This document shows positions 5,978-28,792 of a DNA stretch of 40,723 nt, piece after piece. Each line of letters opens with the position of its first letter. Position 1 is the first letter of the stretch. Below the pieces are notes generated by a model. The model worked only from the letters and a program-made list of their open reading frames with translations, ran no database searches and was not told where the DNA came from. The position numbers were made by a program, and so were the translations under genes. Source of the DNA: Rhodospirillaceae bacterium (GTDB lineage Bacteria; Pseudomonadota; Alphaproteobacteria; Rhodospirillales; Casp-alpha2); assembly GCA_018698795.1 (NCBI GenBank), contig JABIPG010000260.1, forward strand, positions 1 to 40,723, written 5' to 3'.

Positions 5978-5987
5978 GATTTGCTGT

Positions 5988-8049: not shown

Positions 8050-8052
8050 GAT

Positions 8053-9132
8053 TTATTCCCCCGCCCCAGCCAATACACGCCGCCCGAGGCGCACCCGGTA
8101 GCGTGCCAGCACGTCGATCCCAAGCAATGTAAACAAGAACATGCCTTGGAACACGCCGGTGACGGCGCTGGGCAGGTTCATCTTGATCTGCGCCGATTCG
8201 CCACCGATATAAGTCAACGCCATAACAAACCCTGCGAGCAATATCCCAACAGGGTTCAGTCGGCCCAGAAATGCGACGATAATCGCGGTAAAGCCATAAC
8301 CCACCGGCAACGCCGGCACCAGTTGCCCGACCGGTCCGGCAGCTTCGAAAGTGCCCGCCAATCCGGCCAAGCCGCCGGAAATCATTAAGCTGATCCAGAC
8401 CACGCGGTTCTCGACGAACCCACCGAACGCGGCCGCCTTCGGTGACTGGCCCATGACTTTGACCTGGAAGCCAAAAACGTGCCGGCCCAGTAATACCCAG
8501 GCGACGGCAACAGCAGCCAGCGCCACCAGAAAACCCACGTGCGCGCGGGTCTCGGCGATCAGGATCGGCATGATGGCGGCATCGTGGAACAAGCGGCTTT
8601 CCGGAAAATTGAGGCCTTCGGGGTCCTTCAATGGCCCGTGCACAAGCACGCTCAGCAACAGCACAGCCACATAGGTGAGCATCAGCGTTACCAGGATTTC
8701 GTTGGCATTGAAGCGCGTACGCAACAGTGCCGGAATCGCCGCCCAGGCCATACCGCCCAGAACGCCCGCCAAACACATAAGCGGCAGCACCCACACACCA
8801 TTGACCTCATAGAGCGCCAGCGCCATGGCGCCGCCAGTTATGGCGCCCATGGTAAATTGCCCCTCGGCGCCGATGTTCCAAACGCCGGCCCGAAATCCGA
8901 ATGATAGTCCGATGGCGATCAAGATCAGCGGCGTCGCCTTGACGATCATCTCCGAAATTGCGAACGAATCGGCAAGGGGCTCAAAGAAAATAATGAAAAT
9001 CGCCGCGAAGGGGTTTTTCCCAAGAATCGCAAACATCACCAAACCGAGCACGATGGTGACAACGATGGCCAGAACCGGCGTCAGGTACAGGAGATGGCGT
9101 GAAACTTCTTTTCTGGGCTCCAGCCTGATCAT
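8053..9132 (-). CDS. ABC transporter permease, nucleoside/purine type (BMP system, first permease)
   Basis: 359 residues. An N-terminal membrane anchor (LLYLTPVLAIVVTIVLGLVMF) is followed by the BPD_transp_2 core: FGFRAGVWNIGAEGQFTMGA near residue 80, RTRFNANEILVTLMLTYVA near 140, the coupling-helix segment VKVMGQSPKAAAFGG near 225 and GYGFTAIIVAFLGRLNP near 285. This is the longer (YufP/NupP-like) permease of BMP transporters. Its ATG overlaps the stop of the ATPase gene (ATGA), giving translational coupling. It should pair with the next permease and the ATPase below it in the inner membrane. Confidence 0.9.
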   Translation of the reverse strand: MIRLEPRKEVSRHLLYLTPVLAIVVTIVLGLVMFAILGKNPFAAIFIIFFEPLADSFAISEMIVKATPLILIAIGLSFGFRAGVWNIGAEGQFTMGAITGGAMALALYEVNGVWVLPLMCLAGVLGGMAWAAIPALLRTRFNANEILVTLMLTYVAVLLLSVLVHGPLKDPEGLNFPESRLFHDAAIMPILIAETRAHVGFLVALAAVAVAWVLLGRHVFGFQVKVMGQSPKAAAFGGFVENRVVWISLMISGGLAGLAGTFEAAGPVGQLVPALPVGYGFTAIIVAFLGRLNPVGILLAGFVMALTYIGGESAQIKMNLPSAVTGVFQGMFLFTLLGIDVLARYRVRLGRRVLAGAGE

Positions 9133-10667: not shown

Positions 10668-11716
10668 GCTCCCCCCTGTTCAGTCCGCGCATCATTTCGC
10701 GCCGCCACGATAGCGCGTTCTTGCCGGCGGAACAAAAAGTCTGCGGCCAGTGAAACAGCGATTTGCGCTGGCTCTTTACCTCGTAAGTCCGGCAAACCAA
10801 TAGGGGCCTGCAGGCGCTGAATGGCGGCGTCCGCAACGCCGGCGTCGTTCAAGCGCCGGATAAATCGGCCCCGCTTGGTTTTCGACGCGATCACGCCGAG
10901 ATAAGCAAAATCGCCGCGTGCTAGCACGGTGTGGCACACATCGAAATCAATCGCGTGGGAAAAGGTCATCACCACATGCCAAGCGTCACCAGGCGCATGC
11001 CGGGCAGCGTCGGCAGGATTGGCGGACACCAACGGGTGCACGCTTGCGGGAACCGTATCAGGATAGCGCTTGGCATCAGTATCGATCCAATAAATGTCGA
11101 ACGGCAGGCCAGCGAATGCATTCACCACCGCCCGCCCCACGTGCCCGGCGCCATAGAGAAACATGACATCACGCTTCGCATTTGCGGGCTCGATAAACCA
11201 GCCGTCTATTTGCGTCGCTGCGCTCGGCCGCGCACCTGAAAGCATATCGCGCACCGCACCCCGCACACCAAGCGGCCAAGTGTCGTTATCGCCTTTGCGG
11301 CTGGAGATAATTTCCACAGGAGTACCGGATGCGACCGGGCGCACGATGAGTGCATCTTCGATATCAGTATCTGCCAGTGAGCCGGCTTCCGAAGCCGCAA
11401 AGCGCTCGAACAGCAAACGCACATGGCCGCCGCAACATTGCGCAAGCGCCGGCCCGAGCGGGAAATCGCGCACCGCCCGTTGCCAACGCGAGTTCGATGC
11501 GTCGGGCGGTTGTTCCAGCATTGCGCGGGCCGCATCTAACGCGGCAAGCTCTAGCGCCCCGCCGCCGATGGTGCCGTGAAAGCTGTCGGGCGTAAGAACC
11601 ATGGCGCTACCCACGCTGCAAGGCGCGGAGCCCTCGGCCCGGATGACGCTGACCCGAACCACGCCACCGTGGACCGTCGCCAGCTCCAACAGATTTTTGA
11701 GCCAGCTTTGCGTCAT
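10664..11716 (-). CDS. xdhC: xanthine dehydrogenase accessory protein XdhC
   Basis: 350 residues. XdhC proteins bind the molybdenum cofactor, promote its sulfuration and deliver it to xanthine dehydrogenase in the cytoplasm. The N-terminal XdhC/CoxI domain shows VRVSVIRAEGSAPCSVGSAMV, with the conserved cysteine, and GTIGGGALE. The C-terminal domain is a Rossmann fold starting MFLYGAGHVGRAVVNA near residue 195, with YWIDTDAKRYPD after it. The C-terminal tail ARTEQGGA is ordinary. Its ATG overlaps the xdhAB stop and its stop overlaps the ATPase start (both ATGA), so its production is coupled to the enzyme it serves and to the importer. Confidence 0.94.
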   Translation of the reverse strand: MTQSWLKNLLELATVHGGVVRVSVIRAEGSAPCSVGSAMVLTPDSFHGTIGGGALELAALDAARAMLEQPPDASNSRWQRAVRDFPLGPALAQCCGGHVRLLFERFAASEAGSLADTDIEDALIVRPVASGTPVEIISSRKGDNDTWPLGVRGAVRDMLSGARPSAATQIDGWFIEPANAKRDVMFLYGAGHVGRAVVNAFAGLPFDIYWIDTDAKRYPDTVPASVHPLVSANPADAARHAPGDAWHVVMTFSHAIDFDVCHTVLARGDFAYLGVIASKTKRGRFIRRLNDAGVADAAIQRLQAPIGLPDLRGKEPAQIAVSLAADFLFRRQERAIVAARNDARTEQGGA

Positions 11717-14700
11717 GCCACGGCTTCCCCAGCGCCTGTCACTCGCTTGACCGCGGCCAACACGCGCTCCGGCGTGGCCGGTGCATCGAGTGCGGGATAG
11801 TGGCGGTACTCACCTGCCGCCGCCACCGCATCGGAGAGCGCCATCAAGGCGGAAATGCCCAGCATGAACGGCGGTTCCCCAACCGCTTTGGAGCGGTAAA
11901 TCGTTTCCTCGGCATTGTCGCCGCGTTCCCAGATACCGATACGCATATCGGGTGCGCGGTCGCCAAGCGTCGGGATTTTGTACGTTGAAGGTGCGTGGGT
12001 TTTTAGCTGACCTTCTCCATCCCACCACAACTCCTCCGTGGTCAACCAGCCGGCACCTTGCACATAGGCGCCCTCGATTTGGCCGAGGTCTAGGGCCGGG
12101 TTTAGCGATTTGCCGACATCGTGCAGAATATCAACGCGAAGCAATCTGTTTTCGCCGGTCAGCGTATCGATGGCGGCTTCGGTTACCGCAGCACCATAGG
12201 CGAAATAAAAGAACGGTCGGCCCTTGGCCTGTTCTTTATCCCAGTTGATTTTGGGCGTCGCGTAAAAACCAGTCGCCGACAGCGGTACCCGGGCCCGGTA
12301 GGCCTCGCCGATCAACTCATCGAAGGGCACTTCAGTATTTCCAATACGGACCCGGCCGGGCAGAAATGCGACGTCGTTCGGGTCGAGCTGCCATCGTTCG
12401 GCGGCAAAGGATATCAACCGCGCCTTGATCTTGTCGCAGGCGACTTGCGTCGCCATGCCGTTGAGGTCCGAGCCCGATGATGCCGCCGTCGCCGACGTGT
12501 TTGGCACTTTCCCCGTGTGCGTGGCGGTGATCTTGATGCGCTCGATATCCACCTGAAATGCGGTCGCGGCAACCTGCGCCACTTTGGTGAACAACCCCTG
12601 GCCCATTTCCGTGCCGCCGTGGTTCAGGTGGATGGAGCCGTCATTGTAGATATGCACCAGCGCCCCCGCCTGATTGAGGAAGGTCAGTGTGAAGGAAATC
12701 CCGAACTTAACCGGCGTCAGCGCGATGCCGCGCTTCAAGGTATCGTTGGTGCGGTTCCATTCCCGGATTTCGGCGCGGCGCGCGTCGTAGTCGGCGCTGA
12801 CCCGAAGATCGCGCACCAGTTCATCGATGATGCAGTCCTCGACGGTCATGTCGTAGGGGGTAACGGAGCGCTCCCCGATGGCGCCGGGTGGGTCGTAGTA
12901 GTTGACGCTACGTACGTCCAATGGGTCCAGTCCCAGGAAATGCGCGATTTCATCGATGACGCGCTCAATCCCGACCATGCCTTGCGGGCCGCCGAATCCC
13001 CTAAACGCGGTGTTGGAAACCGTATGGGTCTTGCAGCGGTATGAGGTGATTCGAACATTGGGTAGGAAGTAAGCGTTGTCGGCATGAAACATCGCGCGGT
13101 CGCAGATCGGTACGGACAAGTCATAAGACATGCCGCAACGCGCCGCCTGATCGAACTCGATGCCGGCAATGCGGCCATCCGCCCCGAACCCGACCCGGTA
13201 GTCGATGCGAAAATCGTGGCGTTTGCCGGTGATGATCATGTCCTGGTCGCGATCGTAGCGCACGCGGGCGGCGCGTCCGGTTATCGCCGATACGAGCACG
13301 GCGGCGGCGGCCGGCAGGTTGCCGTTACTTTCCTTGCCGCCGAAAGCGCCGCCCATGCGCCGCACTTCGACGGTTACATCGTTGTTGGCCAGTCCCATCA
13401 CCTTGGCGACGGTGTGCTGGATTTCGCTGGGGTGCTGGCTGGAGCAATGCACGGTGACGTCGCCGTCTTCACCCGGCACGGAAAGAGCAGCTTGGCTTTC
13501 GAGATAAAAGTGCTCTTGGCCACCGATATAAATCCGCCCGGAAATCACATGGGGTGCTTCGGTGATAGCCGTTTCGGCTTCGCCCCTGGCCATGTGGTAG
13601 GGCGCTTCGAGCAGTGAGTTTTTGTCCATCGCTTCATCGATGCTGAGGATGGCCGGCAGGTCTTGGTATTCGATTTCGGCCAATGTCGCCGCGTCACGCG
13701 CTTGCTCAATGGTTTCCGCCGCGACGGCGAACAAGGCCTGACCGGCATATTCTACCAGGCCGTCGGCGAATAGCGGATCATCACCCATGGCGGGGCTGAT
13801 ATCGTTGGTGCCGGGAATATCGACCGCCGAGACGACAGTGGCAACGCCGGGTGCTGCCCGAACGGCGGATAGATCCATGGCCGTAATCCGAGCGTGTGCG
13901 CGTTCGCTCATGGCGACATAGACGTTGAGCATGCCTTGCGGGGCGACGATATCATCGACGAACAGTGCTTCGCCGGCGACATGCTTGTGACCGCTATCGT
14001 GGCGACGTGAGGATCGCACGCCGCCGGACACGCCGTCACGTCGCGCGGCTTGTGTGCGAATGGCGCTATCAGTGCGCGGGCCGGCGATGGTGGCACCGGC
14101 GCCGACGAGGCGCGTGGCGGATACGGATTGTTGGGTTTCGCGGAAATAACGGTGTAGCAGGTTGCCGGCGACATCCATCCGATAGGCAGCGCTGGCCCGC
14201 ATGTCGGTGATGGGGCTGAAGTCGTTGGCGAACTCGGCCACGGCCACATTGCATGTGTCTTGTGTCCAGGGCTTGCCGATCAAGGCGGCTTCCACACCGT
14301 GCGCACGCGCGGGCACGGCCGCCATGCCCCCGAACGCAATGCGGGCCGATGTCACATGCCCATCCGTCACTTCAATGGCGAAGCAGCCGCAAACGGCGGA
14401 GATATCTTGGTCGAAGCGCTTGGTGATCTTGTAGCTCTTAAAGGTTTTGGCGGAGCCGGGCAGCGGTATGTCGATGCGTTCAAGAAACTCTCCGGGCAGG
14501 CGGTCCTGCTTGCCGTATTCGATGAAGAAGGCCTCGATGGGTAAGCGGCGGCGCGCATCGCCTTTTCTCAAGACAAGCTCGGCACCCAAAACTATCAACG
14601 CCGGCGGCGTGTCGCCGATGGGCGAGCCGTTGGCGATGTTGCCGCCGATGGTGCCGGCGTTGCGCACTTGCCCGGCCCCGATGCGGCGCATCATTTCGCC

Positions 14701-15543
14701 GAAGTCCGGCGCCAGGTTGCTGATGGTTTCGAGCGCATCCGTATAGCTCACGCCAGCGCCGATGCTCAGTACTTCGTCGGCGTTTATGATTTCCTGCAAC
14801 TCCCGCACCCGGCCCAGGCTGATCACAGTGCGCAGTTTGCGGTGCCCTTTGGTAACCCACAGCCCGACATCGGTGGCGCCGGCAACCAATACGGCGTCCG
14901 GGTTCGCGGCATAAATTTCGGCTAAGTCATCGACAGAGTCCGGCGATATAAAGCGCTCGCCGCCGAAGGTGATATCTACGGTTTCGGTATTGGCATGGGC
15001 GCGCAGCCATTGGCGGTCGGCCTCAATGCGCGCCGTATCCCAATCGGGCATTTCGGTGCCGCCCGCCACCGCTACCGCGGCGGCGATAGGCCCATACCCC
15101 GTGCAGCGACAGAGATTGCCTGCCAGTAGATCAGGTGCAGTTTCGGCGTCCATGGTGTCGCCGGAAATAAATGTCGCATACATGGACATCACGAAACCCG
15201 GCGTGCAGAAACCGCATTGTGACCCATGCTCATCAACCATGGCCTGTTGAACCGGGTGCATTTCGCCCTCGGGGGATTTCAAAAACTCAACAGTGAGAAC
15301 CGATTTCCCTTCCAGCATGCCGACAAACTGGATGCAGGCGTTGATGGCGCGGTATGTGACGTCGCTGCCCGAAAGCTCGCCAATGACCACGGTGCAAGCG
15401 CCGCAATCACCTTCGGCGCAGCCTTCTTTCGAACCCGTGAGCGCCTTCGTCTCGCGCAAATAGTTCAACAACGTCATGGTGGGCGATATCCCACGCACGG
15501 TATGCGCCTCTCCGTTCAGCCGAAAGGTGATCGAATCACGCAT
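11713..15543 (-). CDS. xdhAB: xanthine dehydrogenase, single-chain XdhA-XdhB fusion
   Basis: 1276 residues. It oxidises hypoxanthine to xanthine and xanthine to urate, passing electrons to NAD. Domains in order: plant-type [2Fe-2S] ferredoxin (C42, C47, C50, C70), second [2Fe-2S] domain (C110, C113, C145, C147 in CGFCTPG and CRCTGY), FAD domain (about 195-465, with AGATDVGLWVTKG and GTIGGNIANGSPIGDTPP), an Ala/Arg/Ser-rich linker (about 470-510), then the molybdopterin domain from HDSGHKHVAGEA onward with GGAFGGKESN (near 734), FRGFGGPQG (near 850), GTEMGQGLFTKVAQVA and VGEPPFMLG (near 1222, catalytic Glu). In most bacteria the two halves are separate genes (about 460-490 and 770-790 residues); here both are full length in one frame, like eukaryotic enzymes. 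The ATG at 15543 has only a weak GAGACG ribosome site and overlaps a short upstream ORF. It leads an operon with xdhC and the importer. Confidence 0.95.
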   Translation of the reverse strand: MRDSITFRLNGEAHTVRGISPTMTLLNYLRETKALTGSKEGCAEGDCGACTVVIGELSGSDVTYRAINACIQFVGMLEGKSVLTVEFLKSPEGEMHPVQQAMVDEHGSQCGFCTPGFVMSMYATFISGDTMDAETAPDLLAGNLCRCTGYGPIAAAVAVAGGTEMPDWDTARIEADRQWLRAHANTETVDITFGGERFISPDSVDDLAEIYAANPDAVLVAGATDVGLWVTKGHRKLRTVISLGRVRELQEIINADEVLSIGAGVSYTDALETISNLAPDFGEMMRRIGAGQVRNAGTIGGNIANGSPIGDTPPALIVLGAELVLRKGDARRRLPIEAFFIEYGKQDRLPGEFLERIDIPLPGSAKTFKSYKITKRFDQDISAVCGCFAIEVTDGHVTSARIAFGGMAAVPARAHGVEAALIGKPWTQDTCNVAVAEFANDFSPITDMRASAAYRMDVAGNLLHRYFRETQQSVSATRLVGAGATIAGPRTDSAIRTQAARRDGVSGGVRSSRRHDSGHKHVAGEALFVDDIVAPQGMLNVYVAMSERAHARITAMDLSAVRAAPGVATVVSAVDIPGTNDISPAMGDDPLFADGLVEYAGQALFAVAAETIEQARDAATLAEIEYQDLPAILSIDEAMDKNSLLEAPYHMARGEAETAITEAPHVISGRIYIGGQEHFYLESQAALSVPGEDGDVTVHCSSQHPSEIQHTVAKVMGLANNDVTVEVRRMGGAFGGKESNGNLPAAAAVLVSAITGRAARVRYDRDQDMIITGKRHDFRIDYRVGFGADGRIAGIEFDQAARCGMSYDLSVPICDRAMFHADNAYFLPNVRITSYRCKTHTVSNTAFRGFGGPQGMVGIERVIDEIAHFLGLDPLDVRSVNYYDPPGAIGERSVTPYDMTVEDCIIDELVRDLRVSADYDARRAEIREWNRTNDTLKRGIALTPVKFGISFTLTFLNQAGALVHIYNDGSIHLNHGGTEMGQGLFTKVAQVAATAFQVDIERIKITATHTGKVPNTSATAASSGSDLNGMATQVACDKIKARLISFAAERWQLDPNDVAFLPGRVRIGNTEVPFDELIGEAYRARVPLSATGFYATPKINWDKEQAKGRPFFYFAYGAAVTEAAIDTLTGENRLLRVDILHDVGKSLNPALDLGQIEGAYVQGAGWLTTEELWWDGEGQLKTHAPSTYKIPTLGDRAPDMRIGIWERGDNAEETIYRSKAVGEPPFMLGISALMALSDAVAAAGEYRHYPALDAPATPERVLAAVKRVTGAGEAVA

Positions 15544-15580: not shown

Positions 15581-15775
15581 GCTCCCCCCTCATGTTATTG
15601 GGCAAAATGCTGTTGCACCGCCGGTTTTTGTAAGCGATCAAGAAGGTCGGGAGCACCCTCGCCTGATTACACATCTTAACCTAAAACATTTCACCAACTA
15701 TTCGGTATTTTTTGAAAATGACCCAAGATTTTCCGGGAAGTCGGTCGCAGAGGAACAACGGGGAGAAATTCGACC
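15581..15775. promoter_or_regulatory. divergent control region between xdhAB and the phosphoribosyltransferase gene
   Basis: 195 bases between two divergent purine genes; the central part (15665-15735) is AT-rich. It should contain both promoters and probably a regulator site. I could not assign hexamers with confidence, and I see no long inverted repeat. A GGGGAG stretch about 10 bases before 15776 is the likely ribosome site of the plus-strand gene. Confidence 0.4.
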
Positions 15776-16330
15776 ATGGCTGAAAAGACTTATGTCAGCG
15801 CCCAAAGCCTGTTGGACGACTCGTTTCGGCTGGGTCTCAACATCATGGATGATAAATTTCATCCGGATTATATCATCGGAATTTGGCGCGGTGGCACGCC
15901 AGTCGGTATCGCCGTCCAGGAAATTATGAAGTATCACGGCTTTCCATCCGATCATATCTCTATCCGCACATCCTCCTATACCGGCATCGAAGAACAGAGC
16001 GATGAAATCCGGGTGCACGGGCTGCACTATATTATCGAGAACGTGAATGCTGACAATTCGTTGCTGATCGTTGATGACGTGTTCGATTCGGGCCGCTCCA
16101 TCCAGGCGGTCATTGAGCGGATCAATGCGCTGTCGCGGCGCAATACGCCCGAGGTCATTCGTGTCGCCACGGTTTACTACAAGCCCAGCAAACGAAAGGT
16201 CGAGGTGACGCCGGACTACTATATCCATGAAACCGAGGATTGGTTGGTTTTCCCCCACGAGCTTGAAGGTTTGACCCTCGAAGAGGTCAGGGCAAACAAA
16301 CCCGTGGCGCTTGGCCCGGCTAAGGGGTAG
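15776..16330 (+). CDS. purine (hypoxanthine-type) phosphoribosyltransferase
   Basis: 184 residues, a type I phosphoribosyltransferase. The PRPP loop is [14 protein letters not shown] near residue 98, preceded by the [17 protein letters not shown] loop near 33. Such enzymes join a purine base to PRPP to give the nucleotide. The context (xanthine dehydrogenase, purine importer, guanine deaminase) favours hypoxanthine or xanthine/guanine as base: imported purine may be salvaged here or oxidised by xdh. The short C terminus ([12 protein letters not shown], then [10 protein letters not shown]) is typical of the small bacterial members. Its stop overlaps the tail of the convergent cobQ by 11 bases, so no terminator lies between them. 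The base preference cannot be read from sequence. Confidence 0.85.
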
Positions 16331-20213: not shown

Positions 20214-20987
20214 TTAAACTCTGAAATCTTCTTCGCCACGACCATCTCCGGCTTTATTGGGCGCGTAACTGGCCCATTTGTCGGCGTAATAACGCGCCCG
20301 CATGTCACCCGCCGATTGTCGGTTGAAGGTGAGGAAGATATTGCGTCGCGCTCGCTCGGAGGTGTTGGGCGGTGATCCGTGCGGCACATAGGAATCGAAA
20401 AAAATCACATCACCCGGATCGGCCTCAATTAGGCTGTAGTCTTCGCTGGGTTCGTACGGTGGGTCGATCTCGGTAATCGGCTTCCATTCCTCGGTCATCA
20501 GCGCATCGTGCGGATAATTGCCTGAACTCATGAAACTAAGCGCCGCGTTGTCCTTGCGATTGGCATCGACGGCGATGGCCATGGTGATGAAGAAATCCGT
20601 ATAGGTGTTCCAGCCCGCAGCTTGATCCTGGTGTAGCTTGTCGGCGCGGCAGCCGGGGAGCTTGTAGTTGACCTTCTCCTTGAACAACACCGGTGCTTCG
20701 CCCAGCAGTTGCGTCAAACAGGTCGCGACATCAGCTGAGATCAGCAGCGAAGTCATTGCCGGGTTGATCTCTGTGCCAATTACGTTTTCGATGCGCACCA
20801 GAACATCCTCGCCCGAAAGCACACTTTTCTCATAGTATTTGGCCTCTTGGCCGGGCTCGGGCTCCTTCGCCTGCAATTCGTCGGCCCAGGCTGAAACCTT
20901 GGTCATGGCGGCGCCGTCGAACATACCCTTAACGACAACGAATCCTTTTTGTTGGAACTCTTGAACCTGATCTTCGTCCAATTGCAT
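20214..20987 (-). CDS. phytanoyl-CoA dioxygenase (PhyH) family protein
   Basis: 257 residues, a non-haem Fe(II)/2-oxoglutarate dioxygenase fold. Iron ligands are visible as H119 and D121 (KLHQDQAAGW) and H203 (YVPHGSPPNTS), with the arginines of ERARRNIFLTFN near 212-215 placed to bind 2-oxoglutarate. The N-terminal helix EDQVQEFQQKGFVVVKGMF is typical. These enzymes hydroxylate small molecules; the substrate cannot be deduced. It lies 73 bases downstream of the O-methyltransferase on the same strand. The ribosome site GAGGGA is locked in the 3' arm of a strong hairpin (20997-21031), which suggests translational control. Its C terminus ends convergent with DUF3179, 40 bases away. Confidence 0.88.
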   Translation of the reverse strand: MQLDEDQVQEFQQKGFVVVKGMFDGAAMTKVSAWADELQAKEPEPGQEAKYYEKSVLSGEDVLVRIENVIGTEINPAMTSLLISADVATCLTQLLGEAPVLFKEKVNYKLPGCRADKLHQDQAAGWNTYTDFFITMAIAVDANRKDNAALSFMSSGNYPHDALMTEEWKPITEIDPPYEPSEDYSLIEADPGDVIFFDSYVPHGSPPNTSERARRNIFLTFNRQSAGDMRARYYADKWASYAPNKAGDGRGEEDFRV

Positions 20988-20996
20988 CGAACCATT

Positions 20997-21031
20997 CCCT
21001 CATGAAAACCGGTAAGCCGGCTTTCATAGGG
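20997..21031 (-). promoter_or_regulatory. hairpin covering the ribosome binding site of the dioxygenase gene
   Basis: On the minus strand the arms 21031-21017 and 21012-20997 pair over 15 base pairs (one G-U, one bulged base) with a 4-base loop. The last four pairs tie AGGG of the Shine-Dalgarno stretch (20997-21000) to CCCT. No T-tract follows, so it is not an ordinary intrinsic terminator. Confidence 0.65.
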
Positions 21032-21060
21032 GATTCAGGCGGCAGGGGATTTGACTTAAG

Positions 21061-22065
21061 TCAGGCGAGCGGCTTCAAACCATGAATGCGGGTCAATGTA
21101 CCCTCAATAAACGGTATCGCGGCGACATCCTTAAATCCGGCGGTCTCGAAATAACCGATGCAATCGGCTTCCGAATGGGCGACGCCTTCGGTTTCACTGA
21201 TCGCCTGACCCAAACCCCAATAGGCGGGCCCGATAGGACCGACCCGGTCATCGTTCAAGGTTTCGCCGATCAAGTGCATCTCGCCGCCGGGCTCCAACGC
21301 ATCGAACGCTTTTTGCACGACGCGACCGATCATGTCCGGCCCGTACATGGGCAGGTTCGACGCCATGATGACGACATCGGCGCCAGAGGGGAATTCATCT
21401 TGTGTAAAATCGCCGCCGATTGCCGATACCCGGTCCTGGACGCCGTTCTCGGCAATGAATTCCCGTGCCACTTCAGCCACGCTGGGGAGGTCGAACACCA
21501 CGGCGGTGATCTCTGGGTAGGTGTTGGCGGCGTTGATGCAGTAGGCTCCGGAACCACCGCCGAGATCGAGGATTTTTTTGCGGCCCGCCAAATCCACATG
21601 CCGCACGAACCGCCGCCCCGCCCCCATGCCGATAGAATAGGTCGCCTTGTGATAGGCGCGTGCGTCATCGACCGTGAAATCGCCGATCGGGCCCAGTACT
21701 TTGAGCTCCTTGGCGCGCAGATGATCGGTCAACTGTCCCCAATCGTTCCATTGCGGTTTGTTGAACAGCATCCACGGCCCGGCGTATCGGGGACTGTCTT
21801 CGACTAAAAACCGCGCCACGTCGTCGGCATTGGAAAAACCGTTTTCATCCAAGTGCACCAAATTCATGGCTGTCAACATGGTCAAAAGGCGCTCAGCGTT
21901 GACGGGATGGATTTCGACGGCTTCGGCTACGCTTTCGATGGTCGTCGCGCCGCCGTCGATGGCCGTGAAAATGCCAAGTTCCACCGCCGACATCAACGCC
22001 GCGGATTGTCCAAACCCTTGTACGATGTTCTGTAGCCGTACGCTGTCGATCTTTTTGTCCGTCAT
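21061..22065 (-). CDS. SAM-dependent O-methyltransferase with dimerisation domain
   Basis: 334 residues. The N-terminal winged-helix part (about 1-95: SAALMSAVELGIFTAIDGGA, then VNAERLLTMLTAMNLV) is the dimerisation domain of the plant-caffeate / acetylserotonin O-methyltransferase group. The C-terminal Rossmann domain has the SAM motif KILDLGGGSGAYC near residue 165, VVFDLPSVAEVA for the ribose-binding acidic strand, and LEPGGEMHLIGETL. This group methylates hydroxyls of small molecules such as polyketides, quinone-like or carotenoid compounds. The start ATG 22065 follows AAGGACC; asnB stops 17 bases upstream, so the two are cotranscribed. Substrate unknown. Confidence 0.88.
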   Translation of the reverse strand: MTDKKIDSVRLQNIVQGFGQSAALMSAVELGIFTAIDGGATTIESVAEAVEIHPVNAERLLTMLTAMNLVHLDENGFSNADDVARFLVEDSPRYAGPWMLFNKPQWNDWGQLTDHLRAKELKVLGPIGDFTVDDARAYHKATYSIGMGAGRRFVRHVDLAGRKKILDLGGGSGAYCINAANTYPEITAVVFDLPSVAEVAREFIAENGVQDRVSAIGGDFTQDEFPSGADVVIMASNLPMYGPDMIGRVVQKAFDALEPGGEMHLIGETLNDDRVGPIGPAYWGLGQAISETEGVAHSEADCIGYFETAGFKDVAAIPFIEGTLTRIHGLKPLA

Positions 22066-22082
22066 GCTTCGGTCCTTCTCAA

Positions 22083-23864
22083 TCAAACGTTTTGCGTTGC
22101 GAGCACTTTTCGGGCCCAGCCACGCAACCCTCGCGCTGAACCCTGCTGCCCGCCGCTTTCCTGTACCCAGCGTTCAACAGGCACGAAGAATCCGGACTTC
22201 GGACGGTTGAGAATAGCGTCGGGCAGGGGAGTCGCTGGCGTAATCGCCATGTCGCGTTTACTTGCGAATTTCGGCGCCAACCCCGCGAACAATACCGGGT
22301 CGACCAGCGGCACCCTGATTTCGAGCGAATGCGCCATGCCCGCCCAATCGGCGTCGCGCAGCAGTTGGTTGCGCATATACCAGGCCATCTCAAGCGCGTG
22401 TATTTTGCCCTGCGGAGCGGCGATTCCCTCCACGCCTGCGTTCATGCGTGCGATAGGCTGAAGCTGCTCCCAACCGGCGCGGGCCATATCGGGGTCCATG
22501 ACATCGGGCAGTTCCCACGGCATGAACATGCCGCGCCTGAGCAGGTACGCACCGCCGTAGCTGCCGCCCAGCTCCAACAACCCGGCATATTTCGGCGACG
22601 CCATGGCGCTGATCAATGGGCCGGTCACATGACGGAAGAGTTTTCCGATGGCGCCGATTCCAGGCACGGCGCCCAACGTTTCGGCTAGGCGAGGCACTTG
22701 GCGGAAGGTGTCGTAACCGCCGAACAGTTCATCGCCGCCAAGCCCTGAAAGCACCACCTTCAACCCCCCGTGCGCCGCCACACGGGAAACGAAATAGGTG
22801 TTCACGCCATCGACGCTGGGTTGGTCCATGGCGTGTAGAATATCGGGCAGGGCGCTGTCGAAGTGCAGTTTAGCGATCCGCTCGGTCAGATGGCGGGTGC
22901 CGTAGTGCGCGGAGACGGCTTCCGCCAATGGCACCTCGTCCTTGGGCGTACCTTCGAATTCCTCGAATCCCAGGGTAAAGGTGCGGATGTCGCCGGATTG
23001 CGCTTCAGCGGCAAGTGCCGTCAAGGTAGTCGAATCGAGTCCGGCCGATAGAAAAACACCGACCGGCACGTCAGCAACGAAATGGTGGCGCAGGCTGTCG
23101 AGCAGCAATTCCCGCAGATCGATCTCAGCGGCCTCAGCCGGCGCAGTCGCCAACGCGTTCTGCACATTAAAAAACGTCGTTTCGCGGCGCTTGCCGCCTT
23201 TTTCAACGGTCAGCGTGGTGCCCGGCGCGAGGGCCTTGATGTCGGCATAAAGTGTGTGTGGTTCGGGGACGCTGCCGAACAGATAAAATCCTGCATGACC
23301 CGCCGGGTCGGGGCCGGCCTTGCCGGCATGGCCACCGGCCAACAATGCTTTCACTTGCGAGGCGACCCGCAACGTGCGGCCATCATCGGCGACATAGAGC
23401 GGTTTAATGCCGAACGGATCGCGCGCTATAAACAGGCTTTCGGCCTTTGCGTCCCATATGGCCAAAGTGAACATGCCACGCAGTTGGCCGGCCATGTCGG
23501 CGCCATCGCGCTCGTACAGCCGAACCAGGACCTCGGTGTCTGATTGTGTGGTAAAGGTGACGCCTTGGGTTTCCAGTTCGGCCCGCAAGGCGCGGAAATT
23601 ATATATCTCGCCGTTGTAGGTGATTCGAAAACGTTCCGCCTCACCGGCCAGAGAGTCCCGCACCATGGGCTGGGCTGCGTCGGTTGACAGGTCAATGATG
23701 GCGAGGCGGCGGTGCGCTAGGGCGATACGGCTGGTGTCATCAATCCAATGTCCACCGCCATCCGGGCCACGCCGGAGCATCGCCTGATTGACCGCCAGAA
23801 GCTCGGAAACGGCCACCGGCGGCGCGTCCGTATGATAGGCAAAAAGGGCGGTGATCCCACACAT
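22083..23864 (-). CDS. asnB: asparagine synthase (glutamine-hydrolysing), AsnB family
   Basis: 593 residues. The class II glutaminase domain begins MCGITALFAYH, so the catalytic cysteine becomes the N terminus after Met removal; RRGPDGGG, TYNGEIYNFRALR and TQSDTEVLVRLYE are the glutamine-site motifs. The synthetase domain has the PP-loop VFLSAGLDSTTL near residue 275 and SGLGGDELFGGYD near 375. I chose ATG 23864 because Cys must follow Met; a longer frame would destroy the active site. Paralogues of this type are often found in surface polysaccharide or secondary-metabolite loci, where they amidate other acids, and its neighbours here (methyltransferase, dioxygenase) fit that. Whether it makes asparagine or another amide cannot be told. 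Confidence 0.92.
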   Translation of the reverse strand: MCGITALFAYHTDAPPVAVSELLAVNQAMLRRGPDGGGHWIDDTSRIALAHRRLAIIDLSTDAAQPMVRDSLAGEAERFRITYNGEIYNFRALRAELETQGVTFTTQSDTEVLVRLYERDGADMAGQLRGMFTLAIWDAKAESLFIARDPFGIKPLYVADDGRTLRVASQVKALLAGGHAGKAGPDPAGHAGFYLFGSVPEPHTLYADIKALAPGTTLTVEKGGKRRETTFFNVQNALATAPAEAAEIDLRELLLDSLRHHFVADVPVGVFLSAGLDSTTLTALAAEAQSGDIRTFTLGFEEFEGTPKDEVPLAEAVSAHYGTRHLTERIAKLHFDSALPDILHAMDQPSVDGVNTYFVSRVAAHGGLKVVLSGLGGDELFGGYDTFRQVPRLAETLGAVPGIGAIGKLFRHVTGPLISAMASPKYAGLLELGGSYGGAYLLRRGMFMPWELPDVMDPDMARAGWEQLQPIARMNAGVEGIAAPQGKIHALEMAWYMRNQLLRDADWAGMAHSLEIRVPLVDPVLFAGLAPKFASKRDMAITPATPLPDAILNRPKSGFFVPVERWVQESGGQQGSARGLRGWARKVLATQNV

Positions 23865-23957
23865 GCAAGCTTCATAGCGCGCCCTCGCCGCCGAACAAAG
23901 TTTTTTCAATGGAATCAGGTCTTTGCATCCACCGGTGAAATGGGGTTAAAAAGCCAC

Positions 23958-26117
23958 ATGAAACAGGTCATCCAGAGCCGCAAGAGCGGCAAGCTGGCGC
24001 TCAAGGAGGTTCCTGCGCCACGCGTTAAGGCCGGCCATCTCTTAGTTGAGACCCGCGCTTCGCTGATTTCGGCGGGCACCGAACGCATGGTCATCGACTT
24101 CGCCAAGAAAAGTTTGGCGGGCAAAGCGAAGGCGCGCCCGGACTTGGTGAAGAAAGTTGTCGAGAAAGCCAAGCGCGACGGGCTGAAGGCCACATTCGAA
24201 ACCGTTATGGCGCGGCTGGACGAGCCGCTGCCTTTGGGCTACTCCGCGGCCGGTGTCATTAAGGCCGTGGGCGCGGGGCTGGAGGGTGATTTCCGGGTCG
24301 GTGGTCGTGTCGCCATGGCCGGCGCGGGGCTGGCTAATCATGCTGAACTCAATGTCGTGCCGCGTAATCTTGTGGCCGCCGTGCCCGATGGCGTTAGCGA
24401 CGAGGACGCCGCCTTCGGCACCGTCGGTGCCATAGCGCTGCATGCGGTGCGCAACGCCGAAACAGGATTGGGCGACGTGGTCGCGGTGGTCGGTTGCGGT
24501 CTGGTCGGACAAATGGCGGCGCAATTCCTGACCCTTGCAGGTGCGCGGGTGGTGGCGCTTGATTACGATCCCGAGCGCCTGTCCCTGGCCAAGACCCTGG
24601 GAGCCGAACAGGCGCTCGACCTTGCTGGAGGGCTGGTGGACGAGACGATTCGCGAAATGACCGCCGGACGCGGCGTGGACGCAGTGATCATTGCCGCTGC
24701 CACAAGCTCCGCCGAGCCGTTTGAGACCGCTGCCGCCATTGCGCGAGATCGCGCGCGAGTGGTGATGGTCGGCATGACCGGTACGGCGTTTCCATATGCT
24801 GATTTTATGAAAAAAGAATTGAACGTCATTGTGTCGCGCTCCTATGGGCCGGGCCGCTATGACGATGCATTCGAGAGCCGTGGCGTCAAATACCCGGAAG
24901 GTTGGGTGCGCTGGACAGAGACTGGCAATTTGGAAGAAGCAGTGCGATTGATGCAGCCAGGCCGACCCGTGCGGCTCGATGTTACCAGTCTGATCACGCA
25001 TCGTTTTCCCTTTGACGATACAGAGCAGGCCTACAGCTTGGTCACGGGCGGCGGCAAGCATCTAGCAGTCATCCTCAACTACGATGGCGAAACCGCCGCA
25101 ACGGAGACGCCGGTGATCCGCCCGGCCAATGGAAAAGTCGGCGGCTGCGTCATCGGCGCTATCGGCGGCGGCAACTACGCCCGCACGGTGCTGCTGCCGA
25201 AACTGAAAGGGCTCTCCGCCGTCACGCTGCAAACGCTGGTCACAGAGCGCGGGGCCAGTGCTGAGCATGGGCAAGGTACTTTCGGCTTTCAACATGCGGA
25301 TACCGATCCGACAGCGGTGTTTGACGATGAATCCATTAATGCCGTGCTGATTGCCACCCGCCACGATAGCCACGCCGAACTTGCGATTGAAGCGCTCAAG
25401 GCCGGCAAATCGGTTTGGGTGGAAAAACCATTGGCGCTGACTTTCGAGCAATTGAATGCGGTTATTGAAGCTCGAAACGCGCAAGCGGAAACCGCGGGCG
25501 CATTTTTCCAAATCGGATTTAATCGCCGCTTCGCGCCCGCGACGGTGCGGCTCAAGGGTGCTTTGGTGCGGCATGTCGGCCCCAAGGTGATTTCCATGCG
25601 CATCAATGCCGGCGCCATTCCTGCCGAGCACTGGGTGCATGACCTGGATGCCGGGGGTGGGCGTATTGTGGGTGAAGCCTGCCACTTTATTGATTTGGCC
25701 CGTGCCCTGATCGGCGTGGCGATCACCAGCGTTGATGCACAGGCCGCCGCCAATACTGATGGCGCGTGCGACGATGCGGTGATATCGCTGGGCTTCGCGG
25801 ACGGTTCGTTGGCCAATATTGTCTATACGGCGCGCGGCTCATCGTCCGCCGGCAAGGAACGCATTGAGGCCCATGCCGGCGGTGCGACGTATCTGATCGA
25901 TGATTTTCGCGCGCTCACTGTATCCGGCGACAGTGCCACGCCGCCCTGGAAGGGCGCGCAAGACAAAGGGTTTCAGGCGGCGCTGGAGGCGTTTACCAAA
26001 GCTGTAAGTGCGGGTGGTCTCGCGCCGATTGATGAGGCCGAACTGGTGGAGAGCAGCACCGCGACATTGGCTGCACTTGAAAGCCTGCGCGGCGGCGGAA
26101 AGGTCGAATTGCAATGA
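23958..26117 (+). CDS. two-domain oxidoreductase: MDR (alcohol-dehydrogenase-like) plus Gfo/Idh/MocA
   Basis: 719 residues. Residues 1 to about 370 form a medium-chain dehydrogenase: EVPAPRVKAGHLLVETRASLISAGTE, GYSAAGVIKAVG, and the NAD(P) site VAVVGCGLVGQMAAQFL near 180. The zinc-site GHE motif is absent, replaced by GYSAAG, as is usual in this fused subfamily. Residues from about 385 form a Gfo/Idh/MocA dehydrogenase: VIGAIGGGNYARTVLLPKL, VLIATRHDSHAELA and the catalytic WVEKPLAL. NCBI names such proteins bi-domain-containing oxidoreductases; they are frequent in surface-glycan loci and often near asnB. I chose ATG 23958 (MKQVIQSRKSGK) by family alignment; ATG 23940 adds six residues. It heads an operon with gmhA and hldE. 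The reaction is not known. Confidence 0.88.
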   Translation: MKQVIQSRKSGKLALKEVPAPRVKAGHLLVETRASLISAGTERMVIDFAKKSLAGKAKARPDLVKKVVEKAKRDGLKATFETVMARLDEPLPLGYSAAGVIKAVGAGLEGDFRVGGRVAMAGAGLANHAELNVVPRNLVAAVPDGVSDEDAAFGTVGAIALHAVRNAETGLGDVVAVVGCGLVGQMAAQFLTLAGARVVALDYDPERLSLAKTLGAEQALDLAGGLVDETIREMTAGRGVDAVIIAAATSSAEPFETAAAIARDRARVVMVGMTGTAFPYADFMKKELNVIVSRSYGPGRYDDAFESRGVKYPEGWVRWTETGNLEEAVRLMQPGRPVRLDVTSLITHRFPFDDTEQAYSLVTGGGKHLAVILNYDGETAATETPVIRPANGKVGGCVIGAIGGGNYARTVLLPKLKGLSAVTLQTLVTERGASAEHGQGTFGFQHADTDPTAVFDDESINAVLIATRHDSHAELAIEALKAGKSVWVEKPLALTFEQLNAVIEARNAQAETAGAFFQIGFNRRFAPATVRLKGALVRHVGPKVISMRINAGAIPAEHWVHDLDAGGGRIVGEACHFIDLARALIGVAITSVDAQAAANTDGACDDAVISLGFADGSLANIVYTARGSSSAGKERIEAHAGGATYLIDDFRALTVSGDSATPPWKGAQDKGFQAALEAFTKAVSAGGLAPIDEAELVESSTATLAALESLRGGGKVELQ

Positions 26118-26145
26118 ACGGCGGAAACTGAAAAGGTTCTGAGTT

Positions 26146-26724
26146 ATGGAATTGGGAGCGTTTTTCGACAGTGAGTTCGACGAGCAAGCCGCCGTGGCTG
26201 TCGCCACCAAGGCAGCTCTGAAAGAGCCGTTCGAACGCCTGGTTGCGATTGCGGTGAGTTGCATCCGTAACGGCGGCAAAATTTTGTTTTTTGGCAACGG
26301 CGGCAGCGCTGCGGATTGCCAGCACTTGGCGACCGAACTGACCATTCGCTACATCTCCGACCGCGCGCCCATTGCCGCCATTGCGTTGACGACAGATTCA
26401 TCGGCGCTCACCGCTGGTGGCAACGATATCGGCTTTGAGAACATCTTCGCCCGTCAGGTTGCGGCGCTGGCCAAACCGGGCGATCTCGCCATCGGCATTT
26501 CCACGTCGGGCAACAGCGAGAACGTTATCCGCGCCCTCAAGCAAGCCAAGGACATGGGCGTTACGGCGGCAGCCTTCGGCGGCAAGGGTGGTGGCCCCAT
26601 GGCCGATGTAGCTGACCCGTATTTGGTGGTGCCAGCGAAAACGACGTCCCGCATCCAGGAGATGCACATCACGCTCGGCCATATGTTATGCGGTGCATTG
26701 GAGACGGAATTGGAACTGGTATGA
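26146..26724 (+). CDS. gmhA: D-sedoheptulose 7-phosphate isomerase
   Basis: 192 residues. It makes D-glycero-D-manno-heptose 7-phosphate, the first step to ADP-heptose or GDP-heptose for surface sugars. The SIS fold is clear: GGKILFFGNGGSAADCQHLATELTIRY near residue 43, ISTSGNSENVIRAL near 122, and RIQEMHITLGHMLCGALE at the C terminus, which carries the catalytic histidine. It begins 28 bases after the two-domain oxidoreductase and its TGA overlaps the hldE start (ATGA), so the two heptose enzymes are translationally coupled. Length is that of the family. Confidence 0.94.
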   Translation: MELGAFFDSEFDEQAAVAVATKAALKEPFERLVAIAVSCIRNGGKILFFGNGGSAADCQHLATELTIRYISDRAPIAAIALTTDSSALTAGGNDIGFENIFARQVAALAKPGDLAIGISTSGNSENVIRALKQAKDMGVTAAAFGGKGGGPMADVADPYLVVPAKTTSRIQEMHITLGHMLCGALETELELV

Positions 26725-28187
26725 TCGCCCATCCCACCCTTATCCCGTTGTTGTCCGCGATTGCTGAAAGCCGGGTGCTGTGTGTCGGCGACGTGATGCT
26801 GGATCGATTTATCTCCGGCGACGTGGCGCGAATATCACCCGAAGCGCCGGTGCCGGTGTTGCTGATTTCGGCGGAAACCGAAATGCTTGGCGGCGTTGGC
26901 AATGTGGTTCGCAATCTGGCCGGATTGGGCAGTGCTGCGGCATTGGTGGCGACCGTGGGTGACGATGGTGCGGGGCGGATTGTCGGCGAGCAATTGGCTG
27001 ATTTGGGCGACATCGACCCGGCCTTGGTTGTCGATACGGCGCGCCCGACCTCCATCAAGACGCGATATGTAGCCGGCAATCAGCAAATGCTCCGCGCCGA
27101 CAAGGAAGTGACCGGCTCGCTTGCCCCCGATACCGCGCAGGGTTTGACGGCGGCAGCCATGTCGGGCCTTAACGATTGCGGCGCGTTGGTGTTGTCGGAT
27201 TATGGCAAAGGCGTACTGGGCGGCGGTCGCGCCCAAGACCTGATTGCTGCCGCCAAGGGTGCGGGCAAGCCGGTAATCGTCGATCCCAAAGGCGATGACT
27301 ACAGCATCTACGCAGGTGCAGACCTGATCACGCCGAACCGCAAAGAACTGTCGGAAGCGTCGGGCTTTGTGGTTAACAGTGTCGGTACAGCTGTCGAAGC
27401 TGCAACGTCGCTGTTGAAACAATTTGATTTCGGCGCCGTCCTGGTGACGCTCAGCCATGAAGGCATGGTGCTGGTCACGCCAGAGACCAGCCTGCATGTG
27501 CCGGCCGAAGCGCGCGAGGTGTTCGATGTTTCGGGCGCGGGCGACACTGTGGTCGCGACACTGGCAAGTGCACTGGCGGCGGGGGCCGAGCTTCCCGACG
27601 CCGTCAAATTGGCCAACGCGGCGGCGGGTATTGTGGTCGGCAAGGTGGGCACGGCAGCGGTTTATGCCGCAGAGCTGGTCAGCGCGCTGCATCACGAGGA
27701 GATCTCCCGCGCCGAAGCCAAAGTCCTGACCTTGGCCGAAGCGAAAGATCGCGTTGAGGTTTGGCGGCGGCAAGGGCTCAAGGTCGGCTTTACCAACGGC
27801 TGCTTCGATCTATTGCATCCGGGGCATGTATCGCTGTTGGATCAATCCAAGGCAGCCTGTGAGCGTTTGATCGTTGGGCTCAACAGTGATGCGTCGACGG
27901 CGCGGCTGAAAGGTCCGGAGCGTCCAGTACAGAGTGAGGCTGGTCGGGCGACTGTGTTGGCGTCGCTGGTGAGCGTCGATCTGGTGGTGGTGTTTGAAGA
28001 AGATACGCCCTTGGAAGTAATCAAGGCTTTGCGGCCGGATGTTTTGGTCAAGGGCGCGGACTATGCCAAGGCAGATGTTGTGGGCGCGCCGGAGGTGGAA
28101 AGTTGGGGCGGGCGCGTGCATCTGGCTGATCTACAAGCCGGCCACTCCACCACGGCGACCATTGAACGTCTTACTGGCGGAAAATGA
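26721..28187 (+). CDS. hldE: bifunctional D-beta-heptose 7-phosphate kinase / heptose 1-phosphate adenylyltransferase
   Basis: 488 residues. Residues 1 to about 325 are a PfkB/ribokinase domain: VLCVGDVMLDRFISGDV, EAPVPVL, EMLGGVGNVVRNLAGLG, the kinase site FDVSGAGDTVVATLA near 270. Residues from about 345 are a nucleotidyltransferase with VGFTNGCFDLLHPGHVSLL and VKGADYAKADVVG. It phosphorylates heptose 7-phosphate at O1 and later couples heptose 1-phosphate to AMP. The phosphatase gmhB and epimerase hldD needed to complete ADP-L-heptose are not in this window. The start overlaps gmhA; the stop overlaps the next gene, both by ATGA. Confidence 0.95.
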   Translation: MIAHPTLIPLLSAIAESRVLCVGDVMLDRFISGDVARISPEAPVPVLLISAETEMLGGVGNVVRNLAGLGSAAALVATVGDDGAGRIVGEQLADLGDIDPALVVDTARPTSIKTRYVAGNQQMLRADKEVTGSLAPDTAQGLTAAAMSGLNDCGALVLSDYGKGVLGGGRAQDLIAAAKGAGKPVIVDPKGDDYSIYAGADLITPNRKELSEASGFVVNSVGTAVEAATSLLKQFDFGAVLVTLSHEGMVLVTPETSLHVPAEAREVFDVSGAGDTVVATLASALAAGAELPDAVKLANAAAGIVVGKVGTAAVYAAELVSALHHEEISRAEAKVLTLAEAKDRVEVWRRQGLKVGFTNGCFDLLHPGHVSLLDQSKAACERLIVGLNSDASTARLKGPERPVQSEAGRATVLASLVSVDLVVVFEEDTPLEVIKALRPDVLVKGADYAKADVVGAPEVESWGGRVHLADLQAGHSTTATIERLTGGK

Positions 28188-28792
28188 CGCCTGAGGAAGC
28201 CAATGGGCTATATGCCCTAGCCTGGCTGAGTTTCGGTGTCATGCATTCATGGCTGGCGGGTGCCAGGACGAAAGACCGCATGCGCGCTCTGCTGGGTCCC
28301 TATTATCGATTAATCTACAATATCATTGCGGCGTTGCATCTGGCTGCTATCGGCGCGTTCGGCGCGTGGACCTTCGATGGAGGGCGCGAGGTGGCGCCAT
28401 TCAATGAGTGGCGCGGGATTTTGACGCTTTTGGCTGTCGTCGGTTGGGCGGCACTGATTATGGTGCTGCGGACCTATGACCTGGGCCGGCTTTTAGGCAC
28501 CGCGCAAGTTCGTGCTCACAAAGCCGGTATGTCATTCGAAGACGACGAGCCGTTAATCACTTCCGGATTTCACATCTATGTGCGCCATCCTTTGTACGCG
28601 GCGGGGTTTTTGATTTTATGGGGAGCCGCATGGACCGACCTCGCGCTCGCAACGGCCCTGTGGGGATCTCTTTATCTCGTCATCGGATCGCGATTCGAGG
28701 AGCGGCGGCTGAGAAGGCTCTATGGCGATACCTACCGCGATTATTGCCGGCGCGTGCCGGCGTTTATTCCCTGGCGGGGAAAAGCGCTCTAA
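28184..28792 (+). CDS. membrane protein of the ICMT/PEMT methyltransferase family
   Basis: 202 residues with about five membrane segments (starting NGLYALAWLSFGVMHSWLAG, LIYNIIAALHLAAIGAFG, GILTLLAVVGWAALIMV). The C-terminal signature GFHIYVRHPLYAAGFLILWG followed by FEERRLRRLYGDTYRDYCRRV and FIPW is that of isoprenylcysteine carboxyl methyltransferase-like and phospholipid methyltransferases, where it forms the SAM site at the membrane face. The substrate is unknown. Its ATG overlaps the hldE stop (ATGA), so it is the fourth gene of the heptose operon; it may modify a lipid or lipid-linked product, which is inference. Its stop overlaps the convergent penicillin-binding protein stop by 4 bases. 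Confidence 0.8.
   Translation: MTPEEANGLYALAWLSFGVMHSWLAGARTKDRMRALLGPYYRLIYNIIAALHLAAIGAFGAWTFDGGREVAPFNEWRGILTLLAVVGWAALIMVLRTYDLGRLLGTAQVRAHKAGMSFEDDEPLITSGFHIYVRHPLYAAGFLILWGAAWTDLALATALWGSLYLVIGSRFEERRLRRLYGDTYRDYCRRVPAFIPWRGKAL

Follow-up and report, generated by a model that had tools for sequence, protein, structure and literature searches.

The 40,723-nucleotide stretch of Rhodospirillaceae bacterium DNA analysed here (contig JABIPG010000260.1 of assembly GCA_018698795.1, hereafter the window) contains seven genes arranged in two divergent units. The plus-strand unit encodes a two-domain oxidoreductase, GmhA, HldE and a membrane methyltransferase, in that order, and the minus-strand unit is headed by a gene for an AsnB-family glutamine amidotransferase. 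The explanation that we prefer, and to which we give somewhat better than an even chance, is that this is a slimmed lipopolysaccharide (LPS) or surface-polysaccharide locus, with AsnB forming a sugar uronamide and the oxidoreductase altering a sugar by redox chemistry. The gmhA/hldE operon is best read as the housekeeping supply of ADP-heptose for LPS, and modification of a surface sugar is the most likely role of the AsnB/oxidoreductase pair. An unassigned amidotransferase clade is now linked to LPS heptose genes across the Alphaproteobacteria, and in several phyla a two-domain sugar oxidoreductase is found to adjoin AsnB-type amidotransferases from more than one lineage. If the two enzymes act together, they would constitute an uncharacterised sugar-modification step (uronamide formation with redox remodelling) that occurs widely in polysaccharide loci, where it is currently annotated as asparagine synthesis. 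An earlier note on this DNA had located the seven genes as they are found here, and domain and family matches agree with its assignments; its overall interpretation, in which the genes together make a modified heptose or lipid-linked product, is partly supported.

Linkage of AsnB, the oxidoreductase and the heptose genes

Conservation was evaluated in the window's own genome and 60 relatives (61 in total), with hand-picked orthologue sets (AsnB at ~560 bits or more, with the next best match at 254; the oxidoreductase at 52% identity or more, with pieces on two contigs joined by judgement). An AsnB orthologue is present in 26 of the 61 genomes and 24 of these 26 also have an oxidoreductase orthologue (Fisher's p = 5.6e-8, relatedness ignored), consistent with the proposal that the two gene sets co-occur elsewhere. 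Locus organisation was tabulated for 30 of the 32 oxidoreductase-bearing genomes (the window's own and G029 left out), with loci cut by a contig end counted as lacking the gene. HldE and GmhA are encoded on the same strand as the oxidoreductase at 28 and 25 of the 30 loci, respectively, and PBP1 and AsnB on the opposite strand at 22 and 19. The membrane (PEMT-like) methyltransferase is encoded at 8 loci, and the PhyH-family dioxygenase and the O-methyltransferase that follow AsnB in the window at one each. The conserved set does not include the O-methyltransferase or the dioxygenase. In G038, AsnB and hldE are the more persistent neighbours; a UDP-glucuronate-decarboxylase-like SDR gene is followed by AsnB, a divergent HldE, PBP1, gyrB and recF, with neither oxidoreductase nor GmhA in between, and no GmhA is found genome-wide at E ≤ 1e-30. 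In G020, G026, G009 and others, AsnB is what drops out, and in G055 the AsnB orthologue adjoins a GT4 gene at another locus. An SDR at least 73% identical to one that matches UDP-glucuronate decarboxylase with 399 bits was found at 15 of 40 loci tabulated; the AsnB counts were not taken from this 40-locus table, in which spurious open reading frames (ORFs) displaced some AsnB genes.

In a class-wide sample of 385 genomes, the window's own included, 18 others have an AsnB orthologue with 50-60% identity. The hldE gene is within 15 kb of AsnB and divergent from it in 10 of the 18, on another contig in five (two with AsnB contigs of 8-10 kb), 0.9 Mb distant in one and undetected in two. Four single-contig relatives served as a small control: among the matches listed, their other AsnB-family genes all lie more than 100 kb from hldE, the nearest at 105 kb. 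All ten hldE-linked loci carry a gene that clusters with GT4 glycosyltransferases, and the four checked with Pfam (L199, L202, L205 and L215) encode group-1 or family-2 glycosyltransferases, together with a GT9 protein and a heparinase-II/III domain at L202. Three loci from one genus (L201, L202 and L206) have a second AsnB, an oxidoreductase of the window's type and a heparinase-like gene. Proteins initially taken as Wzx/Wzy have no Pfam match at 1e-5 and that label is unproven. AsnB lies among surface-glycan genes in these other families and in G055, and at the window only gmhA and hldE are present; from this we infer that the window arrangement is a putative reduced form of such glycosyltransferase-bearing loci.

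The AsnB clade and the two-domain oxidoreductase

The window AsnB has the MCG start and the two domains (PF13537 and PF00733) of a Cys2 glutaminase joined to a PP-loop synthetase. In a 68-row tree, a branch with 100/100 support separates its clade from the other rows. Proteins of <480 aa were excluded from the alignment, rows were trimmed to the MCG start and six of 74 rows were dropped (two repeat fragments, a G002 duplicate, a truncated row, an odd row and one with a mis-set start); the tree has flagged long branches, so that its one firm result is the unity of the window clade. Clade members share the motifs S[AS]G[LI]DS, MDQP[ST]x[DN]GVN and SG[LAV]GGDE. The PP-loop in the 25 clade rows, near-copies included, reads SAGLDS in 21, SSGLDS in three and SAGIDS in one, whereas SGG is present in 47 of the 49 non-clade rows, including E. 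coli AsnB (SGGLDS). At the position of E. coli SGEGSDE, SGLGGDE is present in 23 of the 25 clade rows, with SGAGGDE and SGVGGDE in one each. We take the Glu of SGEGSDE and the TTIRAS segment to be aspartate-binding residues, an assumption partially supported in a paper on a Listeria AsnB. Passages of that paper (PMC8554201) take the loss of residues that bind aspartate to indicate a different substrate. In the host assembly, the window copy and a near-copy on contig C1 are the only AsnB-family matches at E ≤ 1e-40; other genomes with a clade AsnB hold further AsnB-family genes (four matches in G001, six in G044). Amidotransferases are habitual in the LPS-type loci of this group, as at least 24 of the 61 genomes (a lower bound, from 25 genomes examined) have a different AsnB-family gene 3.0-3.8 kb from a GT9 gene, for example at G001:C1, G008:C1 and G038:C73; in the six rows placed in the tree, this gene encodes ~590 aa.

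The oxidoreductase consists of an MDR domain (residues ~1-370) fused to a GFO/IDH/MocA sugar dehydrogenase domain with an EKP motif (~397-715). NCBIfam matches to the MDR domain include BchC, at 40.6 bits, far below the cut-off. Segments with catalytic-zinc Cys/His ligands were not found in the MDR domain, a consensus alignment having SAGTER and LGYSAAG at the expected sites; where the ligand Cys and GHE segments should fall, and what they mean, is our presumption. A structure model (pLDDT 77.7, pTM 0.51) confirms the domain folds only, and the nearest solved structures, with 18-25% identity, are inositol, levoglucosan and aminoglycoside sugar dehydrogenases and glucose-fructose oxidoreductase.

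Homologous oxidoreductases were surveyed at the best 80 loci from named genomes, 71 of which have at least 2.1 kb upstream and four of which (L084, L085, L086 and L145) are titled Rhodospirillaceae/Rhodospirillales or Magnetospira/Magnetovibrio. At L145, from a Magnetovibrio metagenome-assembled genome, heptose genes accompany the oxidoreductase but no AsnB orthologue adjoins them. An AsnB-family gene is present at 28 of these loci and is immediately adjacent, on the same strand, at 17 (upstream at 16, downstream at L158). A heparinase-like protein is encoded at 35 loci with a coverage filter, or 49 with none, and a GT4 at 51. By annotation, a Streptomyces sp. KN37 plasmid has asnB and the oxidoreductase with an alginate-lyase-like gene, a nucleotide sugar dehydrogenase and a sugar transferase, and SCO0386 and SCO0387 are neighbours in a table of PMC3610822. 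Sphingobium and Parabacteroides oxidoreductase clusters contain wecB/wecC with no asnB annotated alongside, and the Thalassospira marina oxidoreductase adjoins a lone GT4. As the AsnBs of the surveyed loci scatter over several parts of the tree, all outside the window clade, the AsnB-oxidoreductase pairing probably arose more than once. A single origin of all such pairs was rejected on the same placement (long branches flagged).

Function of the locus and competing explanations

Both HldE domains exceed their NCBIfam cut-offs (349.7 versus 345 and 191.6 versus 181.5 bits); the full-length model NF008454 is below its own (485.5 versus 521 bits). GmhA matches TIGR00441 with 176.9 bits, under the cut-off of 209.45, a shortfall seen in all 61 genomes, and its QH..(E) and QEMHI stretches align with PDB GmhA. 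It is the single match at E ≤ 1e-30 in the host genome, and HldE is single-copy in every genome in which it was detected (58 of the 61), the window's copy being the only one in the host. HldD exceeds its cut-off in 56 of the 61 genomes, including the host, in which the gene is on contig C152 and is truncated by the contig end (368.9 versus 274.6 bits). Genes of the heptosyltransferase family GT9 are present in 60 genomes; the host has four matches, all outside the locus, one of which, on contig C75, adjoins a GT4 gene. GmhB matches occur in 52 of the 61 genomes, all below the cut-off. The housekeeping role assigned to gmhA and hldE follows from their being the only copies in the assembly, with hldD and four GT9 matches elsewhere. 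It had been pointed out that the locus has no glycosyltransferase, gmhB or hldD, which holds for the locus itself but, as hldD and GT9 proteins are encoded elsewhere in the assembly, says little about its function. In two relatives (G023 and G028; L041 and L055), the operon lacks gmhA, which sits on another contig, and a 238-aa ORF, methyltransferase-like by eye, directly follows hldE and precedes PBP1.

In the mechanism that we propose, GmhA would convert sedoheptulose-7-phosphate to heptose-7-phosphate, and HldE would catalyse the phosphorylation and adenylylation; these are the sole enzymes found in the assembly for these steps. With HldD, and presumably GmhB, encoded elsewhere, family and copy number identify them as the suppliers of ADP-heptose, which would flow to heptosyltransferases that are also encoded elsewhere. 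AsnB, as a member of its family, would hydrolyse glutamine, activate a carboxylate with ATP and form a carboxamide. Its context points to a surface-glycan hexuronic acid as the most likely carboxylate, by analogy with WbpS. The oxidoreductase, judged by its domains, probably oxidises a hydroxyl on this sugar or on a neighbouring one and then reduces it again, in an epimerase- or keto-sugar-type reaction, and the PEMT-like protein might methylate a membrane-bound substrate, perhaps on lipid A or the core. In this genus the AsnB unit appears to have acquired a DsyB-paralogous methyltransferase and the PhyH dioxygenase.

Several observations weigh against this explanation. No dehydrogenase that would form a uronate could be recognised at the window locus, the relevant part of the window lacks the UDP-glucuronate-decarboxylase-like gene, and GmhB has no match at E ≤ 1e-8 in the host metagenome-assembled genome, which is 84% complete. 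The AsnB/oxidoreductase pair is not obligate, since eight genomes (G005, G009, G011, G020, G026, G031, G035 and G048) keep the oxidoreductase without an AsnB orthologue; 27 of the 61 genomes have neither, and 24 of these 27 (of the 58 HldE-bearing genomes) have HldE. The oxidoreductase is present at only three of the 18 class loci. AsnB genes abound in polysaccharide loci, and the 28 of 80 is an uncontrolled count. The window AsnB has no TTIRAS segment, but as only E. coli AsnB carries it among the 74 rows, its loss does not single out the clade. The asparagine synthase model TIGR01536 is matched by the window AsnB with 369.9 bits, above the cut-off of 267.1.

That last match, and the lack of any other AsnB-family match at E ≤ 1e-40 in the assembly beyond the C1 near-copy, would fit an ordinary asparagine synthetase, with its linkage to hldE an accident of genome order. 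We regard this as quite unlikely: the E. coli SGEGSDE and SGGLDS motifs are replaced in the clade, the additional AsnB-family genes in G001 and G044 accompany a clade AsnB, and hldE linkage recurs in 10 of the 18 class genomes. A different explanation, that AsnB amidates meso-diaminopimelate (mDAP) of peptidoglycan, would fit the neighbouring PBP1C-type gene, and a PBP gene does lie beyond the operon, on the opposite strand, at 22 of 30 loci; mDAP-amidating AsnB enzymes are on record (in passages of PMC8554201). The 18 loci from other families place AsnB mostly among glycosyltransferase-like genes, with no match to that PBP labelled, and make mDAP amidation most improbable. A dedicated modified-heptose pathway, in which the oxidoreductase and AsnB turn a heptose intermediate into, for example, a heptosuronamide, would account for the fixed gmhA/hldE linkage. 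AsnB and the oxidoreductase do remain beside gmhA/hldE across many families, and AsnB is beside hldE even without the oxidoreductase and gmhA (G038) and in 10 of the 18 AsnB-bearing genomes of the wider class. Such a pathway is nevertheless distinctly unlikely. With no other copies found, gmhA and hldE are also needed for ordinary heptose, and ordinary LPS heptose synthesis, with its single HldE and widespread HldD, explains both genes, which counts against a special heptose pathway. Of the 28 AsnB-bearing oxidoreductase loci, 26 have no GmhA/HldE match in the fetched flanks (the exceptions are L084, from the window's genus, and L146), and a search of the open-access literature found no paper on hepturonic acid or heptosuronamide, which is weak evidence. 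A self-contained new heptose pathway was rejected as the principal explanation because gmhA and hldE are single-copy. It is very unlikely that the pair acts on heptose itself, with oxidation and then amidation yielding alphaproteobacterial LPS that contains a heptosuronamide or a similar amidated heptose, although this would explain why the AsnB clade stays by hldE across families and orders in which the oxidoreductase and gmhA are gone.

The O-methyltransferase and the PhyH dioxygenase are a genus-level addition to the AsnB unit, outside the conserved set. Among solved structures, the best match of the methyltransferase is to DsyB (131.6 bits), with 79 of 305 residues identical over the blocks compared. 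The 4-methylthio-2-hydroxybutyrate (MTHB)-site residues of DsyB are given in part of PMC10989797 as Tyr97, Gln101, Tyr129, Tyr142, Gln146 and His291. Based on three of four alignment rows, the window protein keeps one of these six (Gln101 is aligned to a gap) and three of six S-adenosylmethionine (SAM)-site residues. An assignment as DsyB was rejected on the MTHB-site count, and a role as a tailoring enzyme of the conserved set on its presence at 1 of 30 loci. A paralogue on host contig C219 (426-1397; L197) matches solved DsyB with 382.7 bits, with 170 of 306 residues identical and 6/6 MTHB-site and 5/6 SAM-site residues retained, which suggests, from sequence, that the organism can make dimethylsulfoniopropionate (DMSP). 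PhyH matches with 61-67% identity are present in seven other relatives, none on an hldE-bearing contig; PhyH has no PDB match at 0.001, and its best NCBIfam name, methylphosphonate hydroxylase, is far under the cut-off (124.7 versus 500). The three minus-strand genes are closely spaced (asnB, a 17-base gap, the methyltransferase, a 73-base gap, PhyH), and this spacing and the similarity to DsyB favour a unit that makes a separate small molecule, an osmolyte or natural product, in the genus, unrelated to LPS. AsnB is, however, far more widespread at this place than the methyltransferase and PhyH, the MTHB site is poorly retained, and in G018 an 81% identical methyltransferase is encoded on a 7.9 kb contig that carries neither PhyH nor AsnB, so that such a unit appears unlikely. 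The surface-polysaccharide explanation remains the one that we prefer.

Gene features, surroundings and related systems

All seven genes are genuine and intact, and purifying selection acts on them. Relative to a genome of the same genus (G002), pN/pS is 0.08-0.24 across the seven, with the PEMT-like gene the loosest at 0.24 and the PBP1 neighbour, as a yardstick, at 0.10.

Features of the divergent locus (window coordinates)
Feature	Coordinates	Strand	Evidence and remarks
PhyH-family Fe(II)/2-oxoglutarate dioxygenase	20214-20987	-	PF05721, 8.8e-19
Class I SAM methyltransferase, DsyB paralogue	21061-22086; likelier start 22065	-	PF00891 (Methyltransf_2) and PF08100 (dimerisation domain)
AsnB-family glutamine amidotransferase	22083-23909; likelier start 23864 (MCG, Cys2 nucleophile)	-	PF13537 and PF00733
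Divergent intergenic region between the two units	23865-23957 (93 bases)	.	
Two-domain oxidoreductase	~23958-26117	+	PF00107 (ADH_zinc_N) and PF01408 (GFO/IDH/MocA)
GmhA, sedoheptulose-7-phosphate isomerase	26146-26724	+	PDB GmhA match, 9.8e-50
HldE, bifunctional heptose-7-phosphate kinase / heptose-1-phosphate adenylyltransferase	likelier start 26721; end 28187	+	TIGR02198 and TIGR02199, over cut-off
PEMT/ICMT-like membrane methyltransferase	28184-28792	+	PF04191, 4.8e-6; overlaps hldE end

In the plus-strand unit, 28 bases separate the oxidoreductase from gmhA, and gmhA/hldE and hldE/PEMT overlap by 4 bases each. The 93-base divergent gap reported previously holds if the oxidoreductase starts at 23958, but shrinks to 75 if an in-frame ATG at 23940 is the start. 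This region has no match to a sigma-70-type consensus, sites in a promoter/terminator scan are no more frequent than in shuffles, and Rfam and tRNA scans detected nothing. The PEMT-like protein has YVRHPLY and EER...VPA invariant in nine aligned sequences, one of which (L215) is from outside the order, where it likewise follows hldE. On one side the locus adjoins cob genes and a DUF3179 gene; on the other come a PBP1C-type gene, gyrB, recF, dnaN and dnaA.

The host assembly (3.57 Mb in 283 contigs, of which the window is C45) is 83.9% complete and 5.2% contaminated. It contains a second cobQ-to-oxidoreductase copy (G000:C1, 1-9950; L069), 68-91% identical and in the same order, with an extra 249-aa ORF before PhyH and an oxidoreductase truncated by the contig end; the copy most likely derives from a contaminating second species of the genus. 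Elsewhere in the window, positions 263-15543 form a purine catabolism island with genes for an allantoinase/OHCU decarboxylase, a xanthine permease, 8-oxoguanine and guanine deaminases, a BMP-type ABC transporter, XdhC and a fused xanthine dehydrogenase of 1276 aa. A 186-aa ORF at 15698-16258 has no Pfam match and may be no gene.

The earlier note knew of no described pathway with this gene set. That stands for the exact set within the searches made, as no description was found in the open-access literature listings examined, but the pair of AsnB and a bi-domain oxidoreductase is recurrent, and a Rubrivivax cluster combines heptose genes with wbpS-like amidotransferase genes. The same literature yielded nothing on Rhodospirillum/Magnetospirillum core heptose and, by listing, nothing relevant on Azospirillum rfaE/asparagine synthetase.

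Among known systems, the ADP-L-glycero-D-manno-heptose pathway (GmhA, HldE, GmhB and HldD) resembles the window in its GmhA and bifunctional HldE, single-copy here, with HldD elsewhere; it differs in that the operon is shared here with the oxidoreductase and the PEMT-like methyltransferase, gmhB was not found and hldD is unclustered. DsyB, the MTHB S-methyltransferase of DMSP synthesis, shares its domain architecture and half of its SAM-site residues with the window methyltransferase, but identity is low, the MTHB site is largely replaced and a truer host DsyB is encoded on C219. The WbpS-type amidotransferases (P. aeruginosa WbpS and P. gingivalis PGN_1234) have the AsnB architecture and the glycan-locus context of window-AsnB orthologues elsewhere, a likeness at the level of domains and context, whereas the window AsnB is in its own clade with no uronate pathway genes recognised at the locus. 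WbpS/PGN_1234 is described, in part of PMC7468200, as required for glucuronamide in P. gingivalis and, in sections of PMC12407052 that treat BB0880, the Bordetella b-Cool locus has an asparagine-synthase gene and a glycan with two uronamides. Clusters of AsnB, the bi-domain oxidoreductase and a heparinase/alginate-lyase-like protein, as on the Streptomyces sp. KN37 plasmid and at SCO0386-0387, contain the same two enzyme families, often head to tail; the window pair is instead divergent, accompanied by gmhA/hldE, without a heparinase-like gene or glycosyltransferases, and has an AsnB of another lineage. In the Rubrivivax gelatinosus psc1 polysaccharide cluster, as presented in part of PMC3684757, gmhA, gmhB and heptose kinase genes are clustered with wbpS-like (asparagine synthase) genes, as heptose genes are with an AsnB-type gene in the window; that cluster is, however, of the GDP-heptose type (wcbM, wcbL), with many glycosyltransferases, and a two-domain oxidoreductase is not named in that part of the paper.

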